This document shows, piece after piece, positions 7,543 through 35,588 of a stretch of 48,911 nt of DNA. A model generated the notes under the pieces. That model was not told the origin of the DNA. It did not search any database and saw nothing but the letters and a program-made list of their open reading frames with translations. Numbering within the stretch: the first letter of the stretch is position 1; every line of letters begins with the position of its first letter. The DNA is from a virus. The stretch covers positions 1-48,911 of the IMG/VR virus record IMGVR_UViG_3300021347_000003; one strand, written 5' to 3'. The position numbers were made by a program, and so were the translations under genes.

Positions 7543-9168
7543 TTAATATCCAAAGGTTGCATCAGCGGGTTGCCATCGTTGATTTGGTGGTCCACCAGAA
7601 AAATCAAAAACGGAACGTGATTTTGGACGCGTCATAATACCGTATCGTAACGCATCATATAAGTGGTCTTCTACTTTAGTGTTGACATCTTCTGGATTAG
7701 TTTTATCCATTGGGAGGGTTGGCAATTGAGCAATTAAGTTAGTACAGTTGCTCATTATTTCAATGCCGGCTCTACCGCTTTCTTCGTCAACTTGTAGGCG
7801 CCGGTGTAGTTCGTTCTTACCTGCTACACGACTACCCCTGCTTCTGTCGGATGGGCGCCACCTACACCCTTCAACAATCATTTGTTCTGCAAGGGACGGT
7901 CCTGTGTCTCCGCGCTTATGCCAAAGTGATGAATCAAGTACGCCGTAATGTATTGATTCTCCGTCCTCAGCTTCTAGAACCATATGTGCCAGTTCTTTAG
8001 CTGGTACCTTGCTTACATATAGTTCCCTGTAAACAATTAAAGTTTCGTTGGTAGGGTCTACAGTAAACCAAAGAACGCCAGAAGCAGAAGCGTAACCATA
8101 ATCGCAAGCCCTGAACTTTCTCCATGAGTTCGGTATTTCAAATGGGTCAATAACGTGTACCCGCCTATCAAATTCCGAAAACGCCGCGCCTTCAGCAATG
8201 TCCCAAGACCCTTCTAATAATTGTTTACGCTGTACTTCTGGCAGTGAGAGCAGCATGGCTTCATAATCACCGGCTTCATACAAATATGGGTTATCCAGCA
8301 ATTTAGCTGGCACAAAACGCCTGCTGAAAAGAGGCTGGCCCGCTTTAGAATGCCGACTTGGGTAAGTGAGGGTTTCACCGGTGGTAATATCCGTCGCCCA
8401 AAAGGGTCTTCCAGGGGTGGACGGGTCGATGAACATTTTCTTAACCCAAACATGTCCAGGTCCGCCAGGGTTTGTTGTCGCTCGCATAAAGACTGGGAGC
8501 GAAGGGTCTGCTGTTCTAAGACGCGAGCGTAAATAATCCCAAGCATAAGGTGTAGCATACTGTGTTAATTCATCTATACCAATATATGTAAACGCCTGAC
8601 CTTGGTAACGTAGAACGTCTTTGTCCTGTTCTAGATAGGTCATCCATATTCTGGCACCGGATGGAAAAACCCATTGGCTTTTCTTTTCCATCCACTTCGC
8701 ACCCGGATAAGCATTCGGGTACATCTCTTGACTTTTATGTATCAACTCGCGCAATTCATCATTTGTTCTACGTAGAATTAGCGCATTGAAGTTCTTGTTG
8801 TTGCAATAACGCAACGGGTCTATAATCAAAGCGTAAGACTTGCCGCCTCCGGCTGCGCCGCCATATAAGACTTCGCGCTCAGGTGCCGCAAGAAAATCCG
8901 TTTGGGGGCCAGGATTTGGCTCAAACAGGATTTTATCTTCGGGTTCTTCATTAGACTGCTCAAACCCAGAAGTACCCATAACTTGTATTTCGGGTTCTGG
9001 GTTCTCAAGGCGCTCAAGCTTCTGTATCTTCTTCTGCGCCATATTTAGTTGCATACGTGCAGAACGTTTTTGTTTAGCTAGGCGAGCCTGTTCTTTTTCC
9101 TCTTTAGTTTGAGGTGTTGATGTTGCCTTCGTTTTGGGCCTTGGCGGTACGGCGTTTTTGTTCAGCAT
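7543..9168 (-). CDS. terL: Terminase large subunit
   Basis: A 541-aa packaging motor. The ATPase domain shows Walker A GGAAGGGKS (residues 103-111) and Walker B FTYIGIDEL with the acidic pair D198/E199. The C-terminal half has RNase H-like nuclease features (FRACDYGYAS, YGVLDSSLWHKRGD). The first 60 residues are a basic, probably disordered leader. It overlaps the preceding small gene by 65 bases and is followed by the portal. Role: cuts concatemeric DNA and pumps it into the procapsid using ATP. Confidence 0.95.
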   Translation of the reverse strand: MLNKNAVPPRPKTKATSTPQTKEEKEQARLAKQKRSARMQLNMAQKKIQKLERLENPEPEIQVMGTSGFEQSNEEPEDKILFEPNPGPQTDFLAAPEREVLYGGAAGGGKSYALIIDPLRYCNNKNFNALILRRTNDELRELIHKSQEMYPNAYPGAKWMEKKSQWVFPSGARIWMTYLEQDKDVLRYQGQAFTYIGIDELTQYATPYAWDYLRSRLRTADPSLPVFMRATTNPGGPGHVWVKKMFIDPSTPGRPFWATDITTGETLTYPSRHSKAGQPLFSRRFVPAKLLDNPYLYEAGDYEAMLLSLPEVQRKQLLEGSWDIAEGAAFSEFDRRVHVIDPFEIPNSWRKFRACDYGYASASGVLWFTVDPTNETLIVYRELYVSKVPAKELAHMVLEAEDGESIHYGVLDSSLWHKRGDTGPSLAEQMIVEGCRWRPSDRSRGSRVAGKNELHRRLQVDEESGRAGIEIMSNCTNLIAQLPTLPMDKTNPEDVNTKVEDHLYDALRYGIMTRPKSRSVFDFSGGPPNQRWQPADATFGY

Positions 9169-10737: not shown

Positions 10738-10913
10738 TTTTTTTCTTTATCCATTTTAACACAAAAGCAATTTGCATCAGGATTATCAAATCCGTGTTCA
10801 GTTACAGCTACATGACAAAGGGATAGCCATTTATGAGTATCGTGTACAACTATGCTTACCTCTGAGGAGTTCGCAACAGCGACACAAAACATTACTACGC
10901 CGCCAATTGACAT
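10734..10913 (-). CDS. Small Cys-containing protein
   Basis: A 59-aa frame begins inside the end of the oxygenase-like gene (ATG at 10913; a second in-frame ATG lies at 10892). It begins with a hydrophobic stretch (MSIGGVVMFCVAVA), has four Cys, and ends in DKEKK. The stop overlaps the GTG start of the next gene, a pattern shared by real genes in this operon. No family recognised. Confidence 0.5.
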   Translation of the reverse strand: MSIGGVVMFCVAVANSSEVSIVVHDTHKWLSLCHVAVTEHGFDNPDANCFCVKMDKEKK

Positions 10914-11968
10914 GGGCTACTCGCTTCTACGCCCATCCACTTGCTCCACTCAGCATAGTAGTGGCGCATCCCAACTTCATCATGTATTGTACCATTCTCG
11001 TGTCTACCATGCAGAATGTTACGAGGTTCTGTGCCGGTACGCATTGTTGTGCCCTGACCAGCTACGCCAATCAAATCTTCGTGTAAGTTCCTACCGAATG
11101 GTCCCCAGATAGAGTTATGATGTTTGATGCGTGTCTGCCGTTCTTCAGGGGTATCTTTCTTCAAGCCATATCCACGAAACTCAATCAGTACTTTGTTTGG
11201 TCCTAGTGGTGTTACGCTGTCACTACGGTAGGCACTGCCACGTAAGTTAAAGTTATAGCCGGGGAATAAGTCCACCATGTACCACTGGTTTGGTGGCAGA
11301 TTGGGAAAAGATAACTCCCCCCTATCCTCAAATCCGTCATACTCTTCATAGTTAACAGTAAAGCTGCTGACGTTAACATGACCATTATCAAAAGGGATAT
11401 TCTTTCTAGCGAAATACTCATCGTTAAATCCTGATACACGATTGAAGTAATGCATGAAATCATGGTAGAACTCGCTATTAGTATCGTGCCACAGCTTGTA
11501 GTTAGTATTTATTACGGCTTTGTGGTAGTGAAAGACTTCCATTTCTTCCGTATCAATCGCATCAGCAATACAATCAAAAGCACCGCAAGTCCATTCCTCC
11601 ACTGACATGGTAGGATTGGGGTCTAACGTAATCCAAACCATACCACCATGCTTCACCTCGCAATGTAACTTAGGCTCTGACGTAACTAGTGGGGCGGCAA
11701 AAGTACCCGAAGGCTGTAGTACGTCATAATTACGATATGCTCTAATTTCCTTACCAGTATTATAAGCAAGGATATTCTGCCCTGCTATTTGACCGGTTCT
11801 GAAATTGCCAGAGTTAGGAAGTTCGCTTTTATGAAAGCATGGAACCCACACTTTGGAGAATATATTTTCTACTTCCTGCTCATATAAAGACTGGTCGGAG
11901 TAAATGAGTGAATTGATATATTCAACTTTGGGCGTTTTAATCCAGTCTTTATGATTACGTGGCGGCAT
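10895..11968 (-). CDS. Rieske-type oxygenase homologue lacking the Rieske cluster
   Basis: The 357-aa product follows the fold order of ring-hydroxylating oxygenase alpha subunits. The N-terminal lobe (YEQEVENIFSKVWVPCFHKS, residues 29-48) and the VKHGGMVWITLDP bridge (105-117) are recognisable, but only 25 residues separate AYRN (77-80) from this bridge and the C-x-H and C-x2-H ligands are absent. The catalytic lobe keeps a plausible 2-His-1-carboxylate iron site: H169, H173 in SEFYHDFMHY and D298 in HEDLIG. It may be an electron-partner-independent oxygenase or a binding protein. I recall, without being able to check, that phage HMO-2011 carries a gene annotated as methanesulfonate monooxygenase; this could be its relative. 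Confidence 0.75.
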   Translation of the reverse strand: MPPRNHKDWIKTPKVEYINSLIYSDQSLYEQEVENIFSKVWVPCFHKSELPNSGNFRTGQIAGQNILAYNTGKEIRAYRNYDVLQPSGTFAAPLVTSEPKLHCEVKHGGMVWITLDPNPTMSVEEWTCGAFDCIADAIDTEEMEVFHYHKAVINTNYKLWHDTNSEFYHDFMHYFNRVSGFNDEYFARKNIPFDNGHVNVSSFTVNYEEYDGFEDRGELSFPNLPPNQWYMVDLFPGYNFNLRGSAYRSDSVTPLGPNKVLIEFRGYGLKKDTPEERQTRIKHHNSIWGPFGRNLHEDLIGVAGQGTTMRTGTEPRNILHGRHENGTIHDEVGMRHYYAEWSKWMGVEASSPCQLAA

Positions 11969-11976
11969 TCTGTATC

Positions 11977-12336
11977 CTATCTATTAGGGTCAAAAAATTC
12001 TTCACATGATGTGGTAACAACTAGCTTGCTTGCTGTATCCGCTGTGCATTTGATGATATCACCAGCGTGTAGATACAAAGGTCTGTCTACAGTAAAGATA
12101 GACTCATATGAACCCCCTGAAATAGCATGTGTAGTCAGTAGGTCATACTCTGTATTATCGTCTGCATGAAAAAGATGTAGGCTCAAAGTCACGTTGCCTG
12201 TGTGATTGTTACTTACAAACAAGTTTTCTAAATGTGAAGAAAAGTTTGCAGGTACAGTGTACACATTAGTTTTGTTGGTAGTACCCAGCGCCACTATTTC
12301 TGTACGGAACTTTGAGCCGCCCCCTAATACCGGCAT
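11977..12336 (-). CDS. Small beta-rich protein
   Basis: A 119-aa protein whose alternating hydrophobic pattern (TNVYTVPANFSSHLENLFVS, then VTLSLHLFHAD) suggests a compact beta-sandwich. No signal peptide or catalytic motif. Its start is coupled to the preceding gene stop as TAATG. Beta-sandwich proteins of this size in marine phages are often minor virion or decoration proteins; that role is a guess. Confidence 0.6.
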   Translation of the reverse strand: MPVLGGGSKFRTEIVALGTTNKTNVYTVPANFSSHLENLFVSNNHTGNVTLSLHLFHADDNTEYDLLTTHAISGGSYESIFTVDRPLYLHAGDIIKCTADTASKLVVTTSCEEFFDPNR

Positions 12337-25374: not shown

Positions 25375-26570
25375 TAAAGCTCCTACTTGGTAAAGAGTTT
25401 TACGATGTAAACAGAACACGCGTATTGCGTTCTATGTTTCCCACTGAACTGTCTGACTTGTACGATACAATTATTGTTGGGCATGAAAAGTATGAGCGTG
25501 ATTTAACCGCTAACGAATTACGTGAACTTTTTCGGGTTCACAATCCCACAGCTACTCGTGCTAAACGCGAATTGATTGCTGAGATTATTGATGACTTAAA
25601 AGCCTACCCACCTATCGGTGATGATGTGGCAGCTGATGTGCTAAAAAGCATGTGGCAACAAGAGATTGGTAGACAGATTGCTGACATGGGCTTGGCCATG
25701 ATGGAGGGCAATCCTGATAAGATACATGAAATCAAAGACTTAGTCGATAAGTCTGAGAATGGTTTTATACCCGAAGATGAACTACAACCAGTCACCACTG
25801 ACTTGGATGAACTACTGGAGTTTGAAAAGAACGCCGACTGTTGGGAATTTAACATCCCATCCCTATCTAAAGTTGTACGTGGTGGACGCGGCGGTGAATT
25901 TATGATTGGCTTTGCCAGACCAGAGATTGGTAAGACAGCTTTCTACGTATCGCTGGCCACTGCACCAAATGGCTTTTGTGCACAAGGCGCCAACGTTCAC
26001 GTCATTACTAATGAAGAACCAGCTATCCGTACAATGAAGCGTGCTATATCCGCGTACACTGGATTGAATGGTGAGCAGTTATACATGAACCGTTCACAAG
26101 CAAAAGAAAAGTTCACAGAAATTGGCGCCAACCTAAACATGTTTGATAAAGTGGATGCCAGTATTGAATGGTTGAATAAGCACTGTGAACGGCATAAGCC
26201 TGACATCATCATCATTGACCAACTGGATAAGCTGGATGTGATGGGTTCATTCGCCCGTACTGACGAGAAGCTACGGCAGATATACTTGAAGTTCCGTGAA
26301 GTTTGTAAACGGCACAATGTATTTGGCATTGGCATCAGTCAAGCATCAGCGGATGCTGAGAATAAAACCAATGTCACGTACGCAATGATGGAGAATAGTA
26401 AGACCGGTAAAGCTGCGGAAGCTGATTTGATTATTGGTATCGGTAAATCCGACATCACTGATAACAATGACAGCCGGCGTTACCTCACAATATCTAAAAA
26501 CAAGTTGACCGGATTCCACGGTAATATAGTATGCAACCTAGAAACAGCAACAAGTAGGTACACAGCATGA
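25353..26570 (+). CDS. Replicative DnaB-like helicase, probable ATT start
   Basis: RecA-fold helicase. With the proposed ATT start at 25353 it has 405 residues. Walker A is FARPEIGKTAF (around 187-197), Walker B IIIIDQLDKL with D290, and later GISQASADAENK. Upstream of the first TTG or ATG (25425, 25434) there is no ribosome site, but the open frame extends and encodes TTEQQLIKLLLGKEFYDV, a normal helicase N-terminus, and a GGAG (25341-25344) lies eight bases before the ATT. Role: unwinds DNA at the fork. Confidence 0.88.
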   Translation: MTTEQQLIKLLLGKEFYDVNRTRVLRSMFPTELSDLYDTIIVGHEKYERDLTANELRELFRVHNPTATRAKRELIAEIIDDLKAYPPIGDDVAADVLKSMWQQEIGRQIADMGLAMMEGNPDKIHEIKDLVDKSENGFIPEDELQPVTTDLDELLEFEKNADCWEFNIPSLSKVVRGGRGGEFMIGFARPEIGKTAFYVSLATAPNGFCAQGANVHVITNEEPAIRTMKRAISAYTGLNGEQLYMNRSQAKEKFTEIGANLNMFDKVDASIEWLNKHCERHKPDIIIIDQLDKLDVMGSFARTDEKLRQIYLKFREVCKRHNVFGIGISQASADAENKTNVTYAMMENSKTGKAAEADLIIGIGKSDITDNNDSRRYLTISKNKLTGFHGNIVCNLETATSRYTA

Positions 26571-28687
26571 TTACTACATTAGATGTTGAAACAATGTTTC
26601 AAAAGAACCCTGAGACTAAACGCACTGACCCTTCACCATTTCACAAGGACAATAAGCTTGTATCCGTACAATATGCAATTGAGGATGACGAGCCGGTGTT
26701 TCGTTGGTTTCACCATGATACCGAAACTATTGACACACGTGAAGTTCACAATGATGTACAGAATGCTTTAGATAAGACTACCCTGCTCATCGGCCATAAC
26801 ATTAAGTTTGACTTGGTGTGGCTGTGGGAGTCTGGCTTTAAGTATGACGGTGACGTATACGACACTATGATTGGTGAATACCTATTACTGCGCTGCCAGA
26901 ACTGGGGCGTAAGCTTGGCTGATAGCTGTACCAGACGCAAGGTATCTCTAAAGAAGGGCGACTTGATTGAAGAATACATCCGTAGCGGCATAGGCTTTGA
27001 CAAGATGCCAAAGGATATTGTCGAGGAGTACGGCATCGCTGACGTTGTATCCACACGTGAGTTATTTTATGCACAACGTAAGCTATACTCCGAGGACAAA
27101 AACGCACCACTTCGTAAGCACTTAAAGCTTATGAACAACTTCCTGCCTGTGCTGGCTACGCTAGAACAGAATGGAATCAAGATTGATTTTTCTGAACTTC
27201 ACAAGGTTCGCTCTGACTACCAGATTGAACGCTCTGAGCTACAGATAAAGCTGGAGGACGTGTGCCATGAGGTCATGGGCGACCGCCCCATTAATTTTGC
27301 ATCGCCGGCACAGATGAGTGAGCTTATTTATTCACGCCGTATCACTGACAAAAAGAAATGGGCTGAGATATTTAACATCGGCTTAAACGATAAGGGTAAG
27401 CCATTGCATCGCCCACAGATGAGCACAGCACAGTTTGCTGCCACTGTGAAGAAGATGACAACGCGCATACATAAAACACGTGCTGTACATTGTCGCCAAT
27501 GCCTAGGTAAGGGCGAGTTCTGGAAAACTAAAGTTAACGGTGAGCTGTGGAAGAATGCCACAAAGTGTAAAACTTGTGCTGGCGAAGGATACATACAGGA
27601 GCCCCTACCTAAAATCGGCGGACTCACAATGAATCCACAAGGTGTGCTTGATGTATCTGCCAGTGGGTTTTCCACAGATAAAACCACATTGCTTCGGCTA
27701 TTACGCGCCGCCATTCACAAAGGTAACGAAAGTGCAGAAACCTTCCTGAGAGCCGCTGTACGGCTTAACGCAGTCGAGGTGTATCTTTCTAGCTTTGTAG
27801 GCGGTATAGCCCGTAACGTGAAGCCCAACGGGATATTACACCCTAAGTTTAACCAATGCATTACTCGTACCACTCGTCTGTCTTCATCTGACCCTAACTT
27901 CCAGAACCAGCCACGGGGTAACACGTTCCCAGTGCGCCGTGTTGTTATATCTAGGTTTGACAACGGTACAATTTTACAGGCTGATTATAGTCAGCTTGAA
28001 TTTCGTGTTGCCGCACAGATGAGCGGTGATGAAAATATGATTAAGGATATTTTAGATGGTGTCGATGTTCACAAATATACCGCGTCAGTTATTTTTGATA
28101 AGCCAGAAGCTGAAGTTACCAAGGAAGAAAGAACAGACGCCAAAGCGCATACGTTCAAACCTCTCTATGGAGGGTCTTCCGGCACACCAAGTGAGATGGC
28201 TTATTACAAAGCGTTTACAGAAAAGTACCCAAAGCTTGCTAAATGGCATCAAGATTTGCAGACTGAGGCTATATCACACAATAGTGTTACTCTGCTTACT
28301 GGTCAGCAATTCGCTTTTCCGGATGCTAGACGCCTTGCTTCAGGTGCTGCATCGGGAGCGCCCTCCATCAAGAACTACCCTGTACAAGGTATGGCGGGTG
28401 GTTGCTTGGTGCCGCTGGCAATGCTTTCGTTGCACAGTGCACTTAGACATAATGGCTGTAAGTCTATTGTCATCAATACGGTCCACGACTCTATAGTTCT
28501 TGATGTATTTCCTGGGGAAGAAGCACTGGTTGCCAAGATTACGTATGATGCAATGACCGGTGTGACTAAGGCTTTTGAAGAGCTATATAATGTCAAGTGG
28601 GTGGTGCCACTTGAAGTCGATGTTGAGGTAGGAAAAAACTGGCTAGACATGGACACTTTTACGCTTGACTACCAACAAGCAATGTGA
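26567..28687 (+). CDS. Family A DNA polymerase with zinc insertion
   Basis: 706 aa. The 3'-5' exonuclease is intact: LDVET (D6, E8), GHNIKFDL and YGIADVVSTREL. The polymerase has motif A ADYSQLEFR (D473), motif B R522...K526...F530...Y534-G535 and motif C HDS (D641). The dNTP-selecting residue equivalent to E. coli 762 is Phe530. Between the two domains is an insertion with C309/C312 (CRQCLGKGE) and C334/C337 (CKTCAGEG), similar to the DnaJ central zinc domain. It overlaps the helicase by 4 bases. Role: replicates the genome. Confidence 0.97.
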   Translation: MITTLDVETMFQKNPETKRTDPSPFHKDNKLVSVQYAIEDDEPVFRWFHHDTETIDTREVHNDVQNALDKTTLLIGHNIKFDLVWLWESGFKYDGDVYDTMIGEYLLLRCQNWGVSLADSCTRRKVSLKKGDLIEEYIRSGIGFDKMPKDIVEEYGIADVVSTRELFYAQRKLYSEDKNAPLRKHLKLMNNFLPVLATLEQNGIKIDFSELHKVRSDYQIERSELQIKLEDVCHEVMGDRPINFASPAQMSELIYSRRITDKKKWAEIFNIGLNDKGKPLHRPQMSTAQFAATVKKMTTRIHKTRAVHCRQCLGKGEFWKTKVNGELWKNATKCKTCAGEGYIQEPLPKIGGLTMNPQGVLDVSASGFSTDKTTLLRLLRAAIHKGNESAETFLRAAVRLNAVEVYLSSFVGGIARNVKPNGILHPKFNQCITRTTRLSSSDPNFQNQPRGNTFPVRRVVISRFDNGTILQADYSQLEFRVAAQMSGDENMIKDILDGVDVHKYTASVIFDKPEAEVTKEERTDAKAHTFKPLYGGSSGTPSEMAYYKAFTEKYPKLAKWHQDLQTEAISHNSVTLLTGQQFAFPDARRLASGAASGAPSIKNYPVQGMAGGCLVPLAMLSLHSALRHNGCKSIVINTVHDSIVLDVFPGEEALVAKITYDAMTGVTKAFEELYNVKWVVPLEVDVEVGKNWLDMDTFTLDYQQAM

Positions 28688-31453: not shown

Positions 31454-32464
31454 GTGAGACACGTAGATTTGTGTAGTGGTATCGGCGGCTTTGCTCTAGG
31501 ATTTGAGCAAGCTAATCTTTCAACCCCAGTTATGTTCTGTGATATAGAACCGTGGTGTAGAAATATACTTAAACAACACTGGAATAACGTACCTATTAAA
31601 TCTGATGTAAAGGAATTAGCTAATGACCCAGACAACCTTGTTCCCGATTGCGACATCCTCACAGCAGGATACCCCTGTCAGCCCTTCTCCCAAGCGGGGA
31701 ACCGCAAAGGCAAAGAAGACCCACGTCACATCTGGCCGCACATCCGCAAAATTGTTGCATCCAAAAGACCCTCTTGGGTTGTTTTCGAAAACGTTTATGG
31801 TCACATCAGCTTGGGACTCGACGCTGTGCTCCTTGACTTGGAAACCGAAGGCTACGCCACAAGGACGTTTGTTGTTCCAGCTAGCGGCATCGGCGCACCC
31901 CATAAGCGAGATAGAGTCTGGATTGTGGGCTACACCGAACACAATGGACCATCTACCGCTACGCTCCAAGGAGAGCATGGAGAAAATGAAAGAGGGTCAC
32001 AGGAAGGGCAGGAAGCGTCCCAGCAATCTGCGGGAACAGGTGAATCCAGAGTACGTGAAGATGTGGGCAACTCCAAGGACAACGGATGGGACGGGCGGCC
32101 CACGCCAACTGGACGAAAAGGGTCGCAGGATAAGCAAGACGAATCCAGACCTGAAATTCGGGGCGAATCTAGCGGACCAAGTACGGATGTGGCCGACACC
32201 AACAACCAGAGACCACAAGGGCGGCTATCAGGGTGGCAGGATACGCAACGGCAAGGTGTCGTGGGACACACTGGATGTAGCAGTTCAACACACCGACAAC
32301 CAGAGCAAAACTGGTGGACAACTGAACCCGATGTGGGTAGAGTGGCTAATGGGATACCCAAAAGGGTGGACAGACTTAAAGGACTAGGCAACGCCATAGT
32401 ACCGCAAATTGCACAACAAATCGCTGAATCAATAAAGGTAGTAGAAAATGCCAAAAGATGTTAG
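31454..32464 (+). CDS. dcm: C5-cytosine DNA methyltransferase
   Basis: GTG start at 31454; 336 aa. Dcm motifs: I DLCSGIGGFALGFE (5-18), IV GYPCQPFSQAG with catalytic C75, VI VFENV (E112), VIII RDRVWIV (152-158) and X RLKGLGNAIVPQ (about 308-319). Residues 165-290, the usual target-recognition region, are hydrophilic and low-complexity, because the same DNA also encodes a second frame. Role: methylates phage DNA, probably against host restriction or by host-pattern mimicry. No partner restriction enzyme is next to it. Confidence 0.93.
   Translation: MRHVDLCSGIGGFALGFEQANLSTPVMFCDIEPWCRNILKQHWNNVPIKSDVKELANDPDNLVPDCDILTAGYPCQPFSQAGNRKGKEDPRHIWPHIRKIVASKRPSWVVFENVYGHISLGLDAVLLDLETEGYATRTFVVPASGIGAPHKRDRVWIVGYTEHNGPSTATLQGEHGENERGSQEGQEASQQSAGTGESRVREDVGNSKDNGWDGRPTPTGRKGSQDKQDESRPEIRGESSGPSTDVADTNNQRPQGRLSGWQDTQRQGVVGHTGCSSSTHRQPEQNWWTTEPDVGRVANGIPKRVDRLKGLGNAIVPQIAQQIAESIKVVENAKRC
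31623..32387 (+). CDS. Overprinted WPTP-repeat protein inside dcm
   Basis: A 254-codon frame, +1 to dcm, begins with ATG at 31623 and has its own ribosome site (AAAGGA, 31609-31614, eight bases before). Its protein is not random: LWATPNTMDH, MWATPRTTDGTGG and MWPTPTTRDHKGG are repeats of one block and it ends QLNPMWVEWLMGYPKGWTDL. I recall this WPTP and WVEWLMG-x-P-x-GWT pattern as a C-terminal part of, or a neighbour to, phage cytosine methyltransferases. The two proteins share 765 bases. Whether it is translated alone or by frameshift cannot be seen here. Confidence 0.55.
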   Translation: MTQTTLFPIATSSQQDTPVSPSPKRGTAKAKKTHVTSGRTSAKLLHPKDPLGLFSKTFMVTSAWDSTLCSLTWKPKATPQGRLLFQLAASAHPISEIESGLWATPNTMDHLPLRSKESMEKMKEGHRKGRKRPSNLREQVNPEYVKMWATPRTTDGTGGPRQLDEKGRRISKTNPDLKFGANLADQVRMWPTPTTRDHKGGYQGGRIRNGKVSWDTLDVAVQHTDNQSKTGGQLNPMWVEWLMGYPKGWTDLKD

Positions 32465-32901: not shown

Positions 32902-33052
32902 CATTACAATATCTGCTTCTATTGATTTAGATGAATTTAACGCTGACGTTGATGAAATTTCTGATACTGTAAAAGACTATATAGAAGATTTATTGTTTGA
33001 TGTTGAAGGTATCAAACCTGCTAAAATTAGCGTGAGGATGACACATGAATAA
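32879..33052 (+). CDS. Small acidic protein, 57 aa
   Basis: ATG at 32879 overlaps the DUF3310 gene end, and its stop overlaps the reductase start. The product (NITISASIDLDEFNADVDEI) is acidic with one short helix. Overlap at both ends supports a real gene. Function unknown. Confidence 0.6.
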   Translation: MSRKIRANITISASIDLDEFNADVDEISDTVKDYIEDLLFDVEGIKPAKISVRMTHE

Positions 33053-34973
33053 CCAATTACCTACAGATTATCAGAATTTTATTGCCCTATCTCGTTATGC
33101 GAGGTGGAAGGAAGACGAACAGCGTCGGGAGACTTGGAGTGAGACTGTATCCAGATATTTTGATTATATGGCTGACCATCTGCATCATAAACACGGCTAT
33201 AAGCTTCAACCTGCACTGAAGAAAGAACTGGAAGAAGCAGTGTTGAATCAGTCAATTATGCCCAGTATGAGAGCCTTAATGACTGCCGGTCCAGCACTAG
33301 ACCGCTGCCACGTAGGTGGTTACAACTGTTCTTACGTGCCTGTAGATAGCCCACGTGCGTTTGATGAGACCATGTATATTCTTATGTGTGGTACAGGAGT
33401 AGGCTTCTCTGTTGAACGCCACTGTATTGAAAAGCTACCCATCGTAGCGGAAGAATTTCACAACACAGACACTGTAATTAAAGTTGGCGACAGTCGGCCT
33501 GGATGGGCAAAGTCCCTCAAAGAACTGATTGCTATGCTGTACACAGGCCAAGTTCCTAAGTGGGACGTGTCTGATGTGCGTCCTGCTGGTGCTAGACTCA
33601 AGACATTTGGTGGCAGGGCATCAGGCCCACAGCCATTGGTTGAGTTGTTTGAGTTCGTTGTACAGAAGTTTAAGGGTGCCGCAGGGCGCCGGCTATACCC
33701 AATTGAGTGTCATGACATCATGTGTAAGATTGGTGAAGTTGTAGTCGTAGGCGGTGTACGCCGCAGTGCGTTGATTTCATTGTCTAATCTTAATGATGAC
33801 CAGATGGCACATGCCAAGTCAGGTCAGTGGTGGGAGAATGAAGGACAACGTGCGTTAGCTAATAACTCTGTGGCGTACAAGACTAAGCCTGAGATGGGTA
33901 CATTCATGCGTGAATGGTTATCATTGTACGACAGTAAGTCGGGTGAGCGTGGCATTTTTAACAGACAGTCGGCTAAAAAGCAGGCGGCTAAGAACGGCAG
34001 ACGTGATGTAGAGCACGACTTCGGATGTAATCCTTGCAGTGAGATAATCTTACGCCCATACCAGTTCTGTAATCTGTCAGAGGTAGTTGTACGTGAGAAC
34101 GATACGATTGAAGTGCTGAAGAACAAGGTGCGCCTTGCTACCATCCTTGGTACATTCCAATCTACACTGACTAACTTTAAGTATCTTCGTCATGTATGGA
34201 AGAAGAATACTGAGGAAGAAAGACTGCTTGGAGTGTCACTGACTGGTATCATGGATAGCACGGTAACTGCTACGGCTGGTAATAAGCTAGAAACCCTGCT
34301 TGAAATGCTACGTGATATTTCTGTGCAGACTAACAAGGAGCTTTCTACTAAGCTTCAGATTCCCCAGTCTACTGCGGTAACATGCGTAAAGCCTAGCGGA
34401 ACTGTATCACAGCTCACAGATGCTGCCAGCGGTATCCATGCACGGCATAATCCTTATTACATTCGCACTGTACGCGGTGACAACAAAGACCCGCTCACAC
34501 AGTTCTTAGTCTCTGAGGGTATTCCAGCAGAGCCTGATGTAATGAAGCCCGACAGCACTACAGTGTTTAGCTTTCCAATGAAGTCACCACAAGGTGCAGT
34601 AACACGTACTGCCATGACTGCCATTGAACAGCTCAAGCTGTGGCTAACGTATCAACGTCACTGGTGCGAACACAAACCATCTGTAACAATTTCTGTGAAG
34701 GAATCGGAATGGATGGATGTAGGTGCGTGGGTCTACGAACACTTTGATGAGGTTAGTGGTATTAGCTTCCTGCCATTTAGTGAGCACACGTATCAGCAAG
34801 CCCCATACCAAGATATTGATGAAGTACAATACAAAGAGTTCTTGACTAAGATGCCAAAAAAGGTAGACTGGTCTAAGCTACAGGACTTTGAAAAAGAAGA
34901 TACTACATCAGGTGGACGTGAGTTAGCGTGTACCGCAGGTGTGTGTGAAATTGTAGATATTTCAGCAGGGTGA
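33045..34973 (+). CDS. nrdJ: AdoCbl-dependent ribonucleotide reductase (class II)
   Basis: 642 aa, monomeric class II type. C95 (GGYNCSYVPV) and C342 form the redox pair, C331 in NPCSEI (E333) is the radical Cys with the usual 11-residue spacing to C342, and the C-terminal pair C629/C634 (ELACTAGVCEIV) regenerates them. No ATP-cone is seen at the N-terminus. Role: makes deoxyribonucleotides from ribonucleotides using host-supplied cobalamin, without oxygen. No activating subunit is needed. Confidence 0.97.
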   Translation: MNNQLPTDYQNFIALSRYARWKEDEQRRETWSETVSRYFDYMADHLHHKHGYKLQPALKKELEEAVLNQSIMPSMRALMTAGPALDRCHVGGYNCSYVPVDSPRAFDETMYILMCGTGVGFSVERHCIEKLPIVAEEFHNTDTVIKVGDSRPGWAKSLKELIAMLYTGQVPKWDVSDVRPAGARLKTFGGRASGPQPLVELFEFVVQKFKGAAGRRLYPIECHDIMCKIGEVVVVGGVRRSALISLSNLNDDQMAHAKSGQWWENEGQRALANNSVAYKTKPEMGTFMREWLSLYDSKSGERGIFNRQSAKKQAAKNGRRDVEHDFGCNPCSEIILRPYQFCNLSEVVVRENDTIEVLKNKVRLATILGTFQSTLTNFKYLRHVWKKNTEEERLLGVSLTGIMDSTVTATAGNKLETLLEMLRDISVQTNKELSTKLQIPQSTAVTCVKPSGTVSQLTDAASGIHARHNPYYIRTVRGDNKDPLTQFLVSEGIPAEPDVMKPDSTTVFSFPMKSPQGAVTRTAMTAIEQLKLWLTYQRHWCEHKPSVTISVKESEWMDVGAWVYEHFDEVSGISFLPFSEHTYQQAPYQDIDEVQYKEFLTKMPKKVDWSKLQDFEKEDTTSGGRELACTAGVCEIVDISAG

Positions 34974-34980
34974 GGATACA

Positions 34981-35172
34981 ATGGCTAATAACAAAGCAGT
35001 GGACAGGTTTTATCATGAGGGGCGTAAGTCTTTTAGTGTAGTAGAAAAGTGTGGTAAATACTACCACAGTGCTGCCAATCCATATTCAATGGATTCATTT
35101 AGGGGAAAGGAATGGCAACGTGGGTATAACCTCAGCTATTTCCAAAACTTAAAAAGGGTTCAAGCACGATGA
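34981..35172 (+). CDS. Small basic protein, 63 aa
   Basis: A small basic protein with NPYSMDSFRGKEWQRGYNLS, reminiscent of ribosome modulation factor-like phage proteins (GKEWQRGYN). It lies between the reductase and MazG and overlaps MazG by ATGA. The similarity is loose. Confidence 0.55.
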   Translation: MANNKAVDRFYHEGRKSFSVVEKCGKYYHSAANPYSMDSFRGKEWQRGYNLSYFQNLKRVQAR

Positions 35173-35588
35173 ATGCAAGAGAAAACCAAGTCCGCCGCTT
35201 TCAACAAGCCATGGAACAGCCCATTGATATACCAATGTCTAGCAAAGAACTGATGTTACGTATGTCCTTTATTGATGAAGAAGTAAAGGAGCTACGTGAT
35301 GAAGTGGTGACTGCGGTTAAGGAGCTGGGGGATACCACAGAGGTTTCACATGAAATACGTGTGAAGCTATTAAAAGAACTGAGCGACGTTATGTACGTGG
35401 CTTCTGGCTTTGCTGTAACTTTTGGCTTGCCAATATCTAGGGCTTTTGATAGGGTACATGCATCTAATATGAGCAAGATGGTTGACGGTAAGGCTATCAA
35501 GAATGACGAAGGCAAAGTCATGAAGGGGCCGAACTACAAGCCACCCTTACTAGATGACTTAATAAGCGACCAATTAGAATTATTCTAG
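35169..35588 (+). CDS. MazG-like nucleotide pyrophosphohydrolase
   Basis: 139 aa. The metal-binding pattern E37-E38-x2-E41 (FIDEEVKELRDEV) with E70-x2-D73 (KELSDVMYV) is that of MazG/HisE all-alpha NTP pyrophosphatases. The C-terminal NYKPPLL is common in phage members. Role: hydrolyses NTPs or (p)ppGpp, tuning host nucleotide pools in infection. Confidence 0.85.
   Translation: MNARENQVRRFQQAMEQPIDIPMSSKELMLRMSFIDEEVKELRDEVVTAVKELGDTTEVSHEIRVKLLKELSDVMYVASGFAVTFGLPISRAFDRVHASNMSKMVDGKAIKNDEGKVMKGPNYKPPLLDDLISDQLELF

Follow-up and report, generated by a model that had tools for sequence, protein, structure and literature searches.

A marine phage gene for an MsmA-type oxygenase subunit without a Rieske cluster, candidate catalytic half of a split methanesulfonate monooxygenase

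The alpha subunits of ordinary Rieske oxygenases form an alpha3 ring in which the Rieske cluster of each subunit passes electrons to the mononuclear iron in the adjacent one. Given this inter-subunit path, an iron-only subunit can in principle work beside a Rieske-only subunit, such that two half-dead alpha subunits make one working enzyme. The closest mechanistic precedent for the arrangement considered here is the caffeine N7-demethylase NdmC/NdmD/NdmE, for which PMC4408171 describes NdmC as having no cluster, the reductase NdmD as carrying a Rieske domain, and NdmE as thought to align them. This combination of an iron-only oxygenase subunit with a Rieske domain on a reductase-fused partner recurs in a pair of proteins from SAR116 bacteria, and through the host homolog alone does the likeness extend to the phage protein; it concerns the working principle and not descent. 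Ndm is a different Rieske oxygenase with a Rieske domain appended to its reductase, whereas the SAR116 partner (named MsmA1 here) is an entire alpha subunit whose iron site is dead. In the portions of the literature covered here, no NdmCDE counterpart from a phage is described.

The same type of protein as the one analyzed here is known from phage HMO-2011 (MsmA-like protein) and as the second MsmA (methanesulfonate monooxygenase hydroxylase alpha subunit) of Ca. Puniceispirillum marinum IMCC1322. It was reported in 2015 (PMC4433239) that the HMO-2011 protein and one of the two MsmA proteins of IMCC1322 lack the Rieske motif, and the idea that the phage gene is an auxiliary metabolic gene was repeated in a review (PMC4928673). 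In SAR116, msmA lies near dmsABC-type genes and is confined to one subclade, according to PMC8547437 and PMC12262181. Iron-site loss in a partner protein, or a split enzyme, is not described in the available parts of this literature, including PMC4433239, and a paper treating methylophage Venkman makes no mention of an MsmA gene in that phage. The missing motif was therefore already known, and what appears to be new is the electron source, a complementary MsmA1. It offers a testable answer to a loose end that dates from 2013–2015, namely why one of the most abundant types of marine phage carries an apparently broken methanesulfonate (MSA) monooxygenase.

The window, i.e., the whole 48,911-nt stretch of viral DNA analyzed (IMG/VR record IMGVR_UViG_3300021347_000003), is from a phage. 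Its terminase large subunit (7543..9168, minus strand) places it in an HMO-2011-type neighborhood, with 60–68% identity to HMO-2011 and CRP-group roseophages and 46–48% to pelagiphages. The gene of interest is a 357-aa CDS with an ATG start (10895..11968, minus strand), confirmed exactly as first called, and encodes a Rieske-less MsmA-type oxygenase alpha subunit (MsmA2). The catalytic domain PF00848 was the sole Pfam match in this protein (31.6 bits against a cut-off of 24.9; residues 141–346); the Pfam scan found no Rieske domain (PF00355) in it, and PHROGs contained no family for it. Sequence matches in the PDB were nearly all Rieske oxygenases, aligned over the N-terminal base (about residues 17–81) and only weakly over the C-terminal part.

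The flanks of the cluster lobe are kept in the phage protein (FRT at 56, N80, and GGMVW at 108), but the spacing from FRT to GGxxW is 52 residues, vs. 100 in full-length MsmA, and 48 residues bearing CPH...CMFH have therefore been lost. Residues 1–80 (11729..11968, minus strand) make up the opening portion of the Rieske base subdomain, which is retained, with PDB Rieske oxygenase matches over 17–81, and are followed by a hypervariable scar in place of the 2Fe-2S cluster-binding lobe (residues 81–107; 11648..11728, minus strand), 48 residues shorter than in full MsmA. The remainder of the base subdomain (GGMVWITLD...; residues 108–140; 11549..11647, minus strand) and the catalytic helix-grip domain (residues 141–345; 10934..11548, minus strand; PF00848) complete the protein. 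Judged from the alignments, the cluster-binding lobe of the Rieske domain is removed and the beta base and catalytic domain are kept. The preliminary description had proposed such an oxygenase with its fold order kept and the cluster gone, and this holds, with neither PF00355 nor a CXH...CXXH motif present; its count of 25 residues between the conserved sites is to be replaced by the 27 residues of the scar. Among phages, residues 81–107 share only 42% identity and change in length; in most cellular MsmA2 proteins the scar is conserved as CPxIDRPxGNG, in which the first cluster Cys survives as a relic.

The mononuclear iron site is intact, as had been supposed from the single sequence. The ligands H169 (11462..11464), H173 (11450..11452) and D298 (in an HED motif; 11075..11077), together with E166 (11471..11473; all on the minus strand), which corresponds to the bridging Asp/Glu between the Rieske centre of the neighbor and the iron in Rieske oxygenases, were present in 81 of 82 aligned phage copies (the remaining row is gapped) and in all 12 cellular Rieske-less copies; loss of these ligands in relatives, which would have spoken against an iron site, did not occur in either group. 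E166 is also invariant in full MsmA and is lost in MsmA1. The H-x3-H spacing of the site is likewise invariant in full MsmA, from which it is evidently inherited; H-x4-H is the spacing familiar from other Rieske oxygenases.

An AlphaFold2 model of the phage protein, built on 40 homologs (pLDDT 85, pTM 0.88; high confidence from about residue 20), gave, along almost the full protein, top structural matches to Rieske-oxygenase alpha subunits, led by terephthalate dioxygenase (TPADO; 7q06_F, Z 32.5, 2.7 A, 320 residues) and including NagGH salicylate 5-hydroxylase (7c8z, Z 32.1). In the model, the phage protein has the alpha-subunit fold of Rieske oxygenases, common to both enzymes at Z of about 32 over 311–328 residues, even though identity is about 20% and, unlike the phage protein, both have a Rieske lobe of their own. 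A different fold is unsupported, given that the best structural matches are Rieske oxygenases and not members of another family.

Relatives of the gene are encoded on at least 599 viral contigs, and the C-x-H...C-x-x-H motif is absent from every phage copy in the alignment. The catalytic domain is almost invariant among phages (mean pairwise identity 94%), with an omega of 0.014 compared with 0.10 for the N-terminal base (residues 1–80) and 0.035 for base residues 101–140, values to be read as orders of magnitude from the computable pairs only, with synonymous sites near saturation. The number of contigs, the low omega and the loss of the motif in all phage copies rule out chance, a frameshift, a pseudogene or an assembly artifact. 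The near-invariance of the iron ligands and catalytic domain also disfavors the earlier suggestion that the protein works as a binder.

Cellular relatives were sought in 84,980 species genomes, and two sorts were recovered. The first comprises full MsmA proteins (L100–L162) of 409–433 aa with a C-x-H-x26-C-x-x-H motif (one position is masked in L151). They share with the phage protein the catalytic domain and the E-x2-H-x3-H ... D site, whereas the phage protein lacks the CXH-X26-CXXH lobe that defines MsmA; its identity to full MsmA is 56–66% (about 50–59% to L100–L162 by tblastn). The second sort (L083–L099), here termed MsmA2, consists of Rieske-less proteins of 352–364 aa, mostly from SAR116 genomes, that are 71–78% identical to the phage protein. 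In quick trees of the catalytic domain with SH-aLRT support, the phage proteins and MsmA2 formed a single clade (support 99) beside alphaproteobacterial MsmA, bearing out the comparison with the large subunit of methanesulfonate monooxygenase that had been suggested at the outset. One further contig, L086, binned into a bacterial genome, also carries the oxygenase gene and could belong to either a cell or a phage.

The cellular MsmA2 homologs are linked to msmB, msmC and a reductase, which is not the case in the phage, where none of msmB, msmC and msmD was found in the window. The msm locus of SAR116 comprises, in order, an MsmEFGH-like transporter encoded on the other strand, an MsmA1-reductase of about 800 aa, MsmB (PF00866/SnoaL), MsmC (a Rieske ferredoxin, PF00355), a protein of about 280 aa of unknown function, MsmA2, a LysR regulator, the sulfite exporter TauE, and C1 genes including formate-tetrahydrofolate ligase. 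MsmA1 joins an MsmA to a flavoprotein reductase (Pyr_redox_2 + Reductase_C) in one polypeptide. Its Rieske lobe is intact (CPHRG...CMFHAW), whereas the iron-site motifs and the bridging Glu are gone in all aligned copies; all 12 tallied MsmA1 proteins keep the four cluster ligands and miss the H-x3-H/D site. In G094 (a genome in a single contig of 2,753,527 bp) and L097, the dead site still resembles a worn original, e.g., KLNHDRTIKFHQDFMK in place of KLWHDTNSEFYHDFMH, and this worn-copy look fits decay after duplication. An AlphaFold model of the MsmA1 fusion was poor (pLDDT 64, pTM 0.45) and was left out of the analysis, and the alpha-subunit fold of MsmA1 is therefore a presumed one.

The composition of these loci varies. 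In G094, genes for a molybdopterin-type oxidoreductase of 962 aa and its iron-sulfur and membrane subunits (L199:7412-12002) lie between msmC and the 276-aa unknown gene plus msmA2, and this set is probably the dmsABC or soeABC of published papers. G001, from the SAR116 order, has two complete MsmA1/MsmA2 pairs on separate contigs (L200, L201). MsmA1 and the reductase are two overlapping ORFs rather than one fusion in G008 (L214:14689-17075), which could be a real fission or a sequencing frameshift. The unknown protein belongs to a family of about 275–290 aa without a Pfam match that adjoins MsmC and/or MsmA2 in the split loci (L094:7921-8745, L199:12055-12885 and L214:18111-18986, all plus strand) and of which no member turned up in the four full-length MsmA loci used for comparison; by analogy with NdmE, we would guess that it is an adaptor.

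MsmA1 and MsmA2 co-occur closely. Within the SAR116 order, 12 of 136 genomes contain MsmA2, 11 of these 12 contain MsmA1, and the twelfth (G007) shows a fused reductase tail at a contig edge; MsmA1 was found in none of the other genomes among the 136 scanned (Fisher test: 2e-15, ignoring the relatedness of the genomes). The only genome of the order with a full-length MsmA (G018) is without MsmA2. Mean pairwise identities of the Rieske lobe and catalytic domain are 80% and 80% in full MsmA and 97% and 42% in MsmA1, and the catalytic domain stands at 94% in both MsmA2 and the phage proteins, from which the lobe is absent. The omega in MsmA1, again as an order of magnitude, is 0.0016 for the Rieske lobe and 0.156 for the catalytic remnant. 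Selection is thus reciprocal between MsmA1, on the Rieske lobe, and MsmA2 and the phage protein, on the catalytic domain, where omega is about 0.01. A scan of viral contigs for exact 8-mers from the Rieske region of one MsmA1 sequence, which divergent copies could escape, found no relative; neither the Rieske half nor a full-length MsmA sharing these peptides turned up in a phage. Phages seem, on these peptide matches, to carry just the iron half.

From these patterns, we consider it probable that the phage gene supplies MsmA2 as the catalytic-iron subunit of a split heteromeric MSA monooxygenase, with the Rieske/reductase subunit made by the host. We also favor, with a little less assurance, the broader reading that a SAR116 Rieske oxygenase became two complementary, mutually dependent alpha subunits, and that their very abundant phages bring along the catalytic subunit alone, as a plug-in part for the electron-delivering half of the host, comparable in its logic to cyanophage psbA as a replacement part carried by a phage. 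Heteromer formation, inter-subunit electron transfer, MSA as the substrate and the benefit to the phage are what we infer under this model. An ancestral MsmA in SAR116 would have been duplicated and the copies would have degenerated in complementary ways: MsmA1 would have kept the Rieske lobe, lost all iron ligands and become fused to an NAD(P)H-flavin reductase, and MsmA2 would have kept the iron site and lost the Rieske lobe. Phage MsmA2, carried alone, would most likely insert into the host MsmA1/B/C complex, and the catalytic half, renewed or raised during infection, would boost the oxidation of MSA to sulfite and formaldehyde/C1 units. The weakest structural point is that a trimer cannot alternate two subunit types, and there would therefore be one productive MsmA1-to-MsmA2 interface per alpha3 unless assembly differs.

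An oxygenase without a cluster had been expected to need another electron donor, an expectation that the cellular loci support in offering, beside the MsmA2 homologs, a plausible one: the reductase-fused alpha subunit that has a Rieske cluster but a dead iron site. A donor encoded by the phage itself was rejected, with no Rieske (PF00355) or Fer2 (PF00111) gene within the window and no reductase among the long ORFs scanned with Pfam. MsmC, as a separate Rieske ferredoxin, could also donate directly to MsmA2. Taken further, MsmA2 might be an independent oxygenase that receives its electrons from host MsmC docking at the site of the lost lobe, with MsmA1 merely a reductase carrying a vestigial oxygenase domain; MsmC is indeed kept in the operon, and the phage scar varies as if it were a free surface. 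We regard this as unlikely, since no part of the system is more tightly constrained than the MsmA1 Rieske lobe, contrary to what a vestige would show, and a large alpha-subunit remnant has been retained in MsmA1 across a long divergence.

Under the split-enzyme reading, the substrate might instead be another small sulfonate or a C1/N-methyl compound, and the variable N-terminal part of the phage proteins could accommodate this. The closeness of the protein to bona fide MsmA, an operon with an MsmEFGH-type transporter, TauE and C1 genes, and the assignment of msmA to MSA use in the SAR116 papers (PMC12262181 and PMC8547437) all make this improbable. If the split-enzyme reading with MSA is true, what looks like a "broken" gene encodes one intact half of a two-part enzyme, and complementary loss across an inter-subunit electron path is a route by which Rieske oxygenases can evolve. 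With one subunit, a phage could then drive a host sulfur/C1 pathway, and users of MSA in the ocean would be miscounted in msmA surveys, whether these demand the Rieske motif or disregard it.

The oxygenase gene shares a late block with the genes for lysozyme, terminase and portal. Directly upstream, after a gap of 8 nt, is a 119-aa gene of phrog_1276 with no assigned function (11977..12336, minus strand), and the phage lysozyme (PF00959; 13512..14006, minus strand) belongs to the same block; in related loci the neighbors share the orientation of the oxygenase gene and its position relative to the lysozyme gene varies. A location in the lysis/packaging block counts against a metabolic role in that late expression would limit the metabolic benefit. 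Proximity to the lysozyme and packaging genes would also suit a virion or lysis-module protein without enzymatic activity that was exapted from MsmA, but we consider this very improbable, because the active site is extremely conserved and the gene also occurs on at least one phage-like contig with a different neighborhood. A decoy that joins and poisons the host oxygenase, or sequesters MSA or iron, and so shuts down host C1/sulfur metabolism, is improbable too. Carriage of a single subunit, in a late block, would be in keeping with it, yet phages conserve the iron ligands and pocket to the degree seen in cells, a decoy would have no use for a catalytic triad, and the Rieske-less subunit is present in the host cells as well. 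A host homolog of the phage gene exists and is metabolic (SAR116 MsmA2), and an auxiliary metabolic gene, as first suggested, is a reasonable designation by homology.

Among annotated phages, the sole close match to the window protein is the HMO-2011 copy (ADW08429.1; 76% identity), from a phage isolated on Ca. Puniceispirillum marinum (SAR116). Among the terminase relatives listed, including 11 CRP roseophages and four pelagiphages, only this SAR116-infecting isolate carries the gene, and the association between gene and SAR116 among isolates depends on it (Fisher test: 0.06). SAR116 would be the likely host of the window phage.

The phage-like contig with a different neighborhood, a 30-kb contig binned as Rickettsiales, encodes MsmA2 (L098:9001-10086) beside phage-type class I ribonucleotide reductase and endolysin genes. 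Apart from the oxygenase, it had no match to the genes of the window or HMO-2011 and, with its phage-type genes, therefore looks like another kind of phage. In the window, a plus-strand block includes genes for a cytosine-C5 methylase (31454-32464), a B12-type ribonucleotide reductase (33045-34973) and a MazG/PRA-PH-like pyrophosphohydrolase (35169-35588). The DNA polymerase A gene (26567-28687, plus strand) shows a weak match, below the cut-off, to the DnaJ central zinc finger (PF00684) between its exonuclease and polymerase parts.
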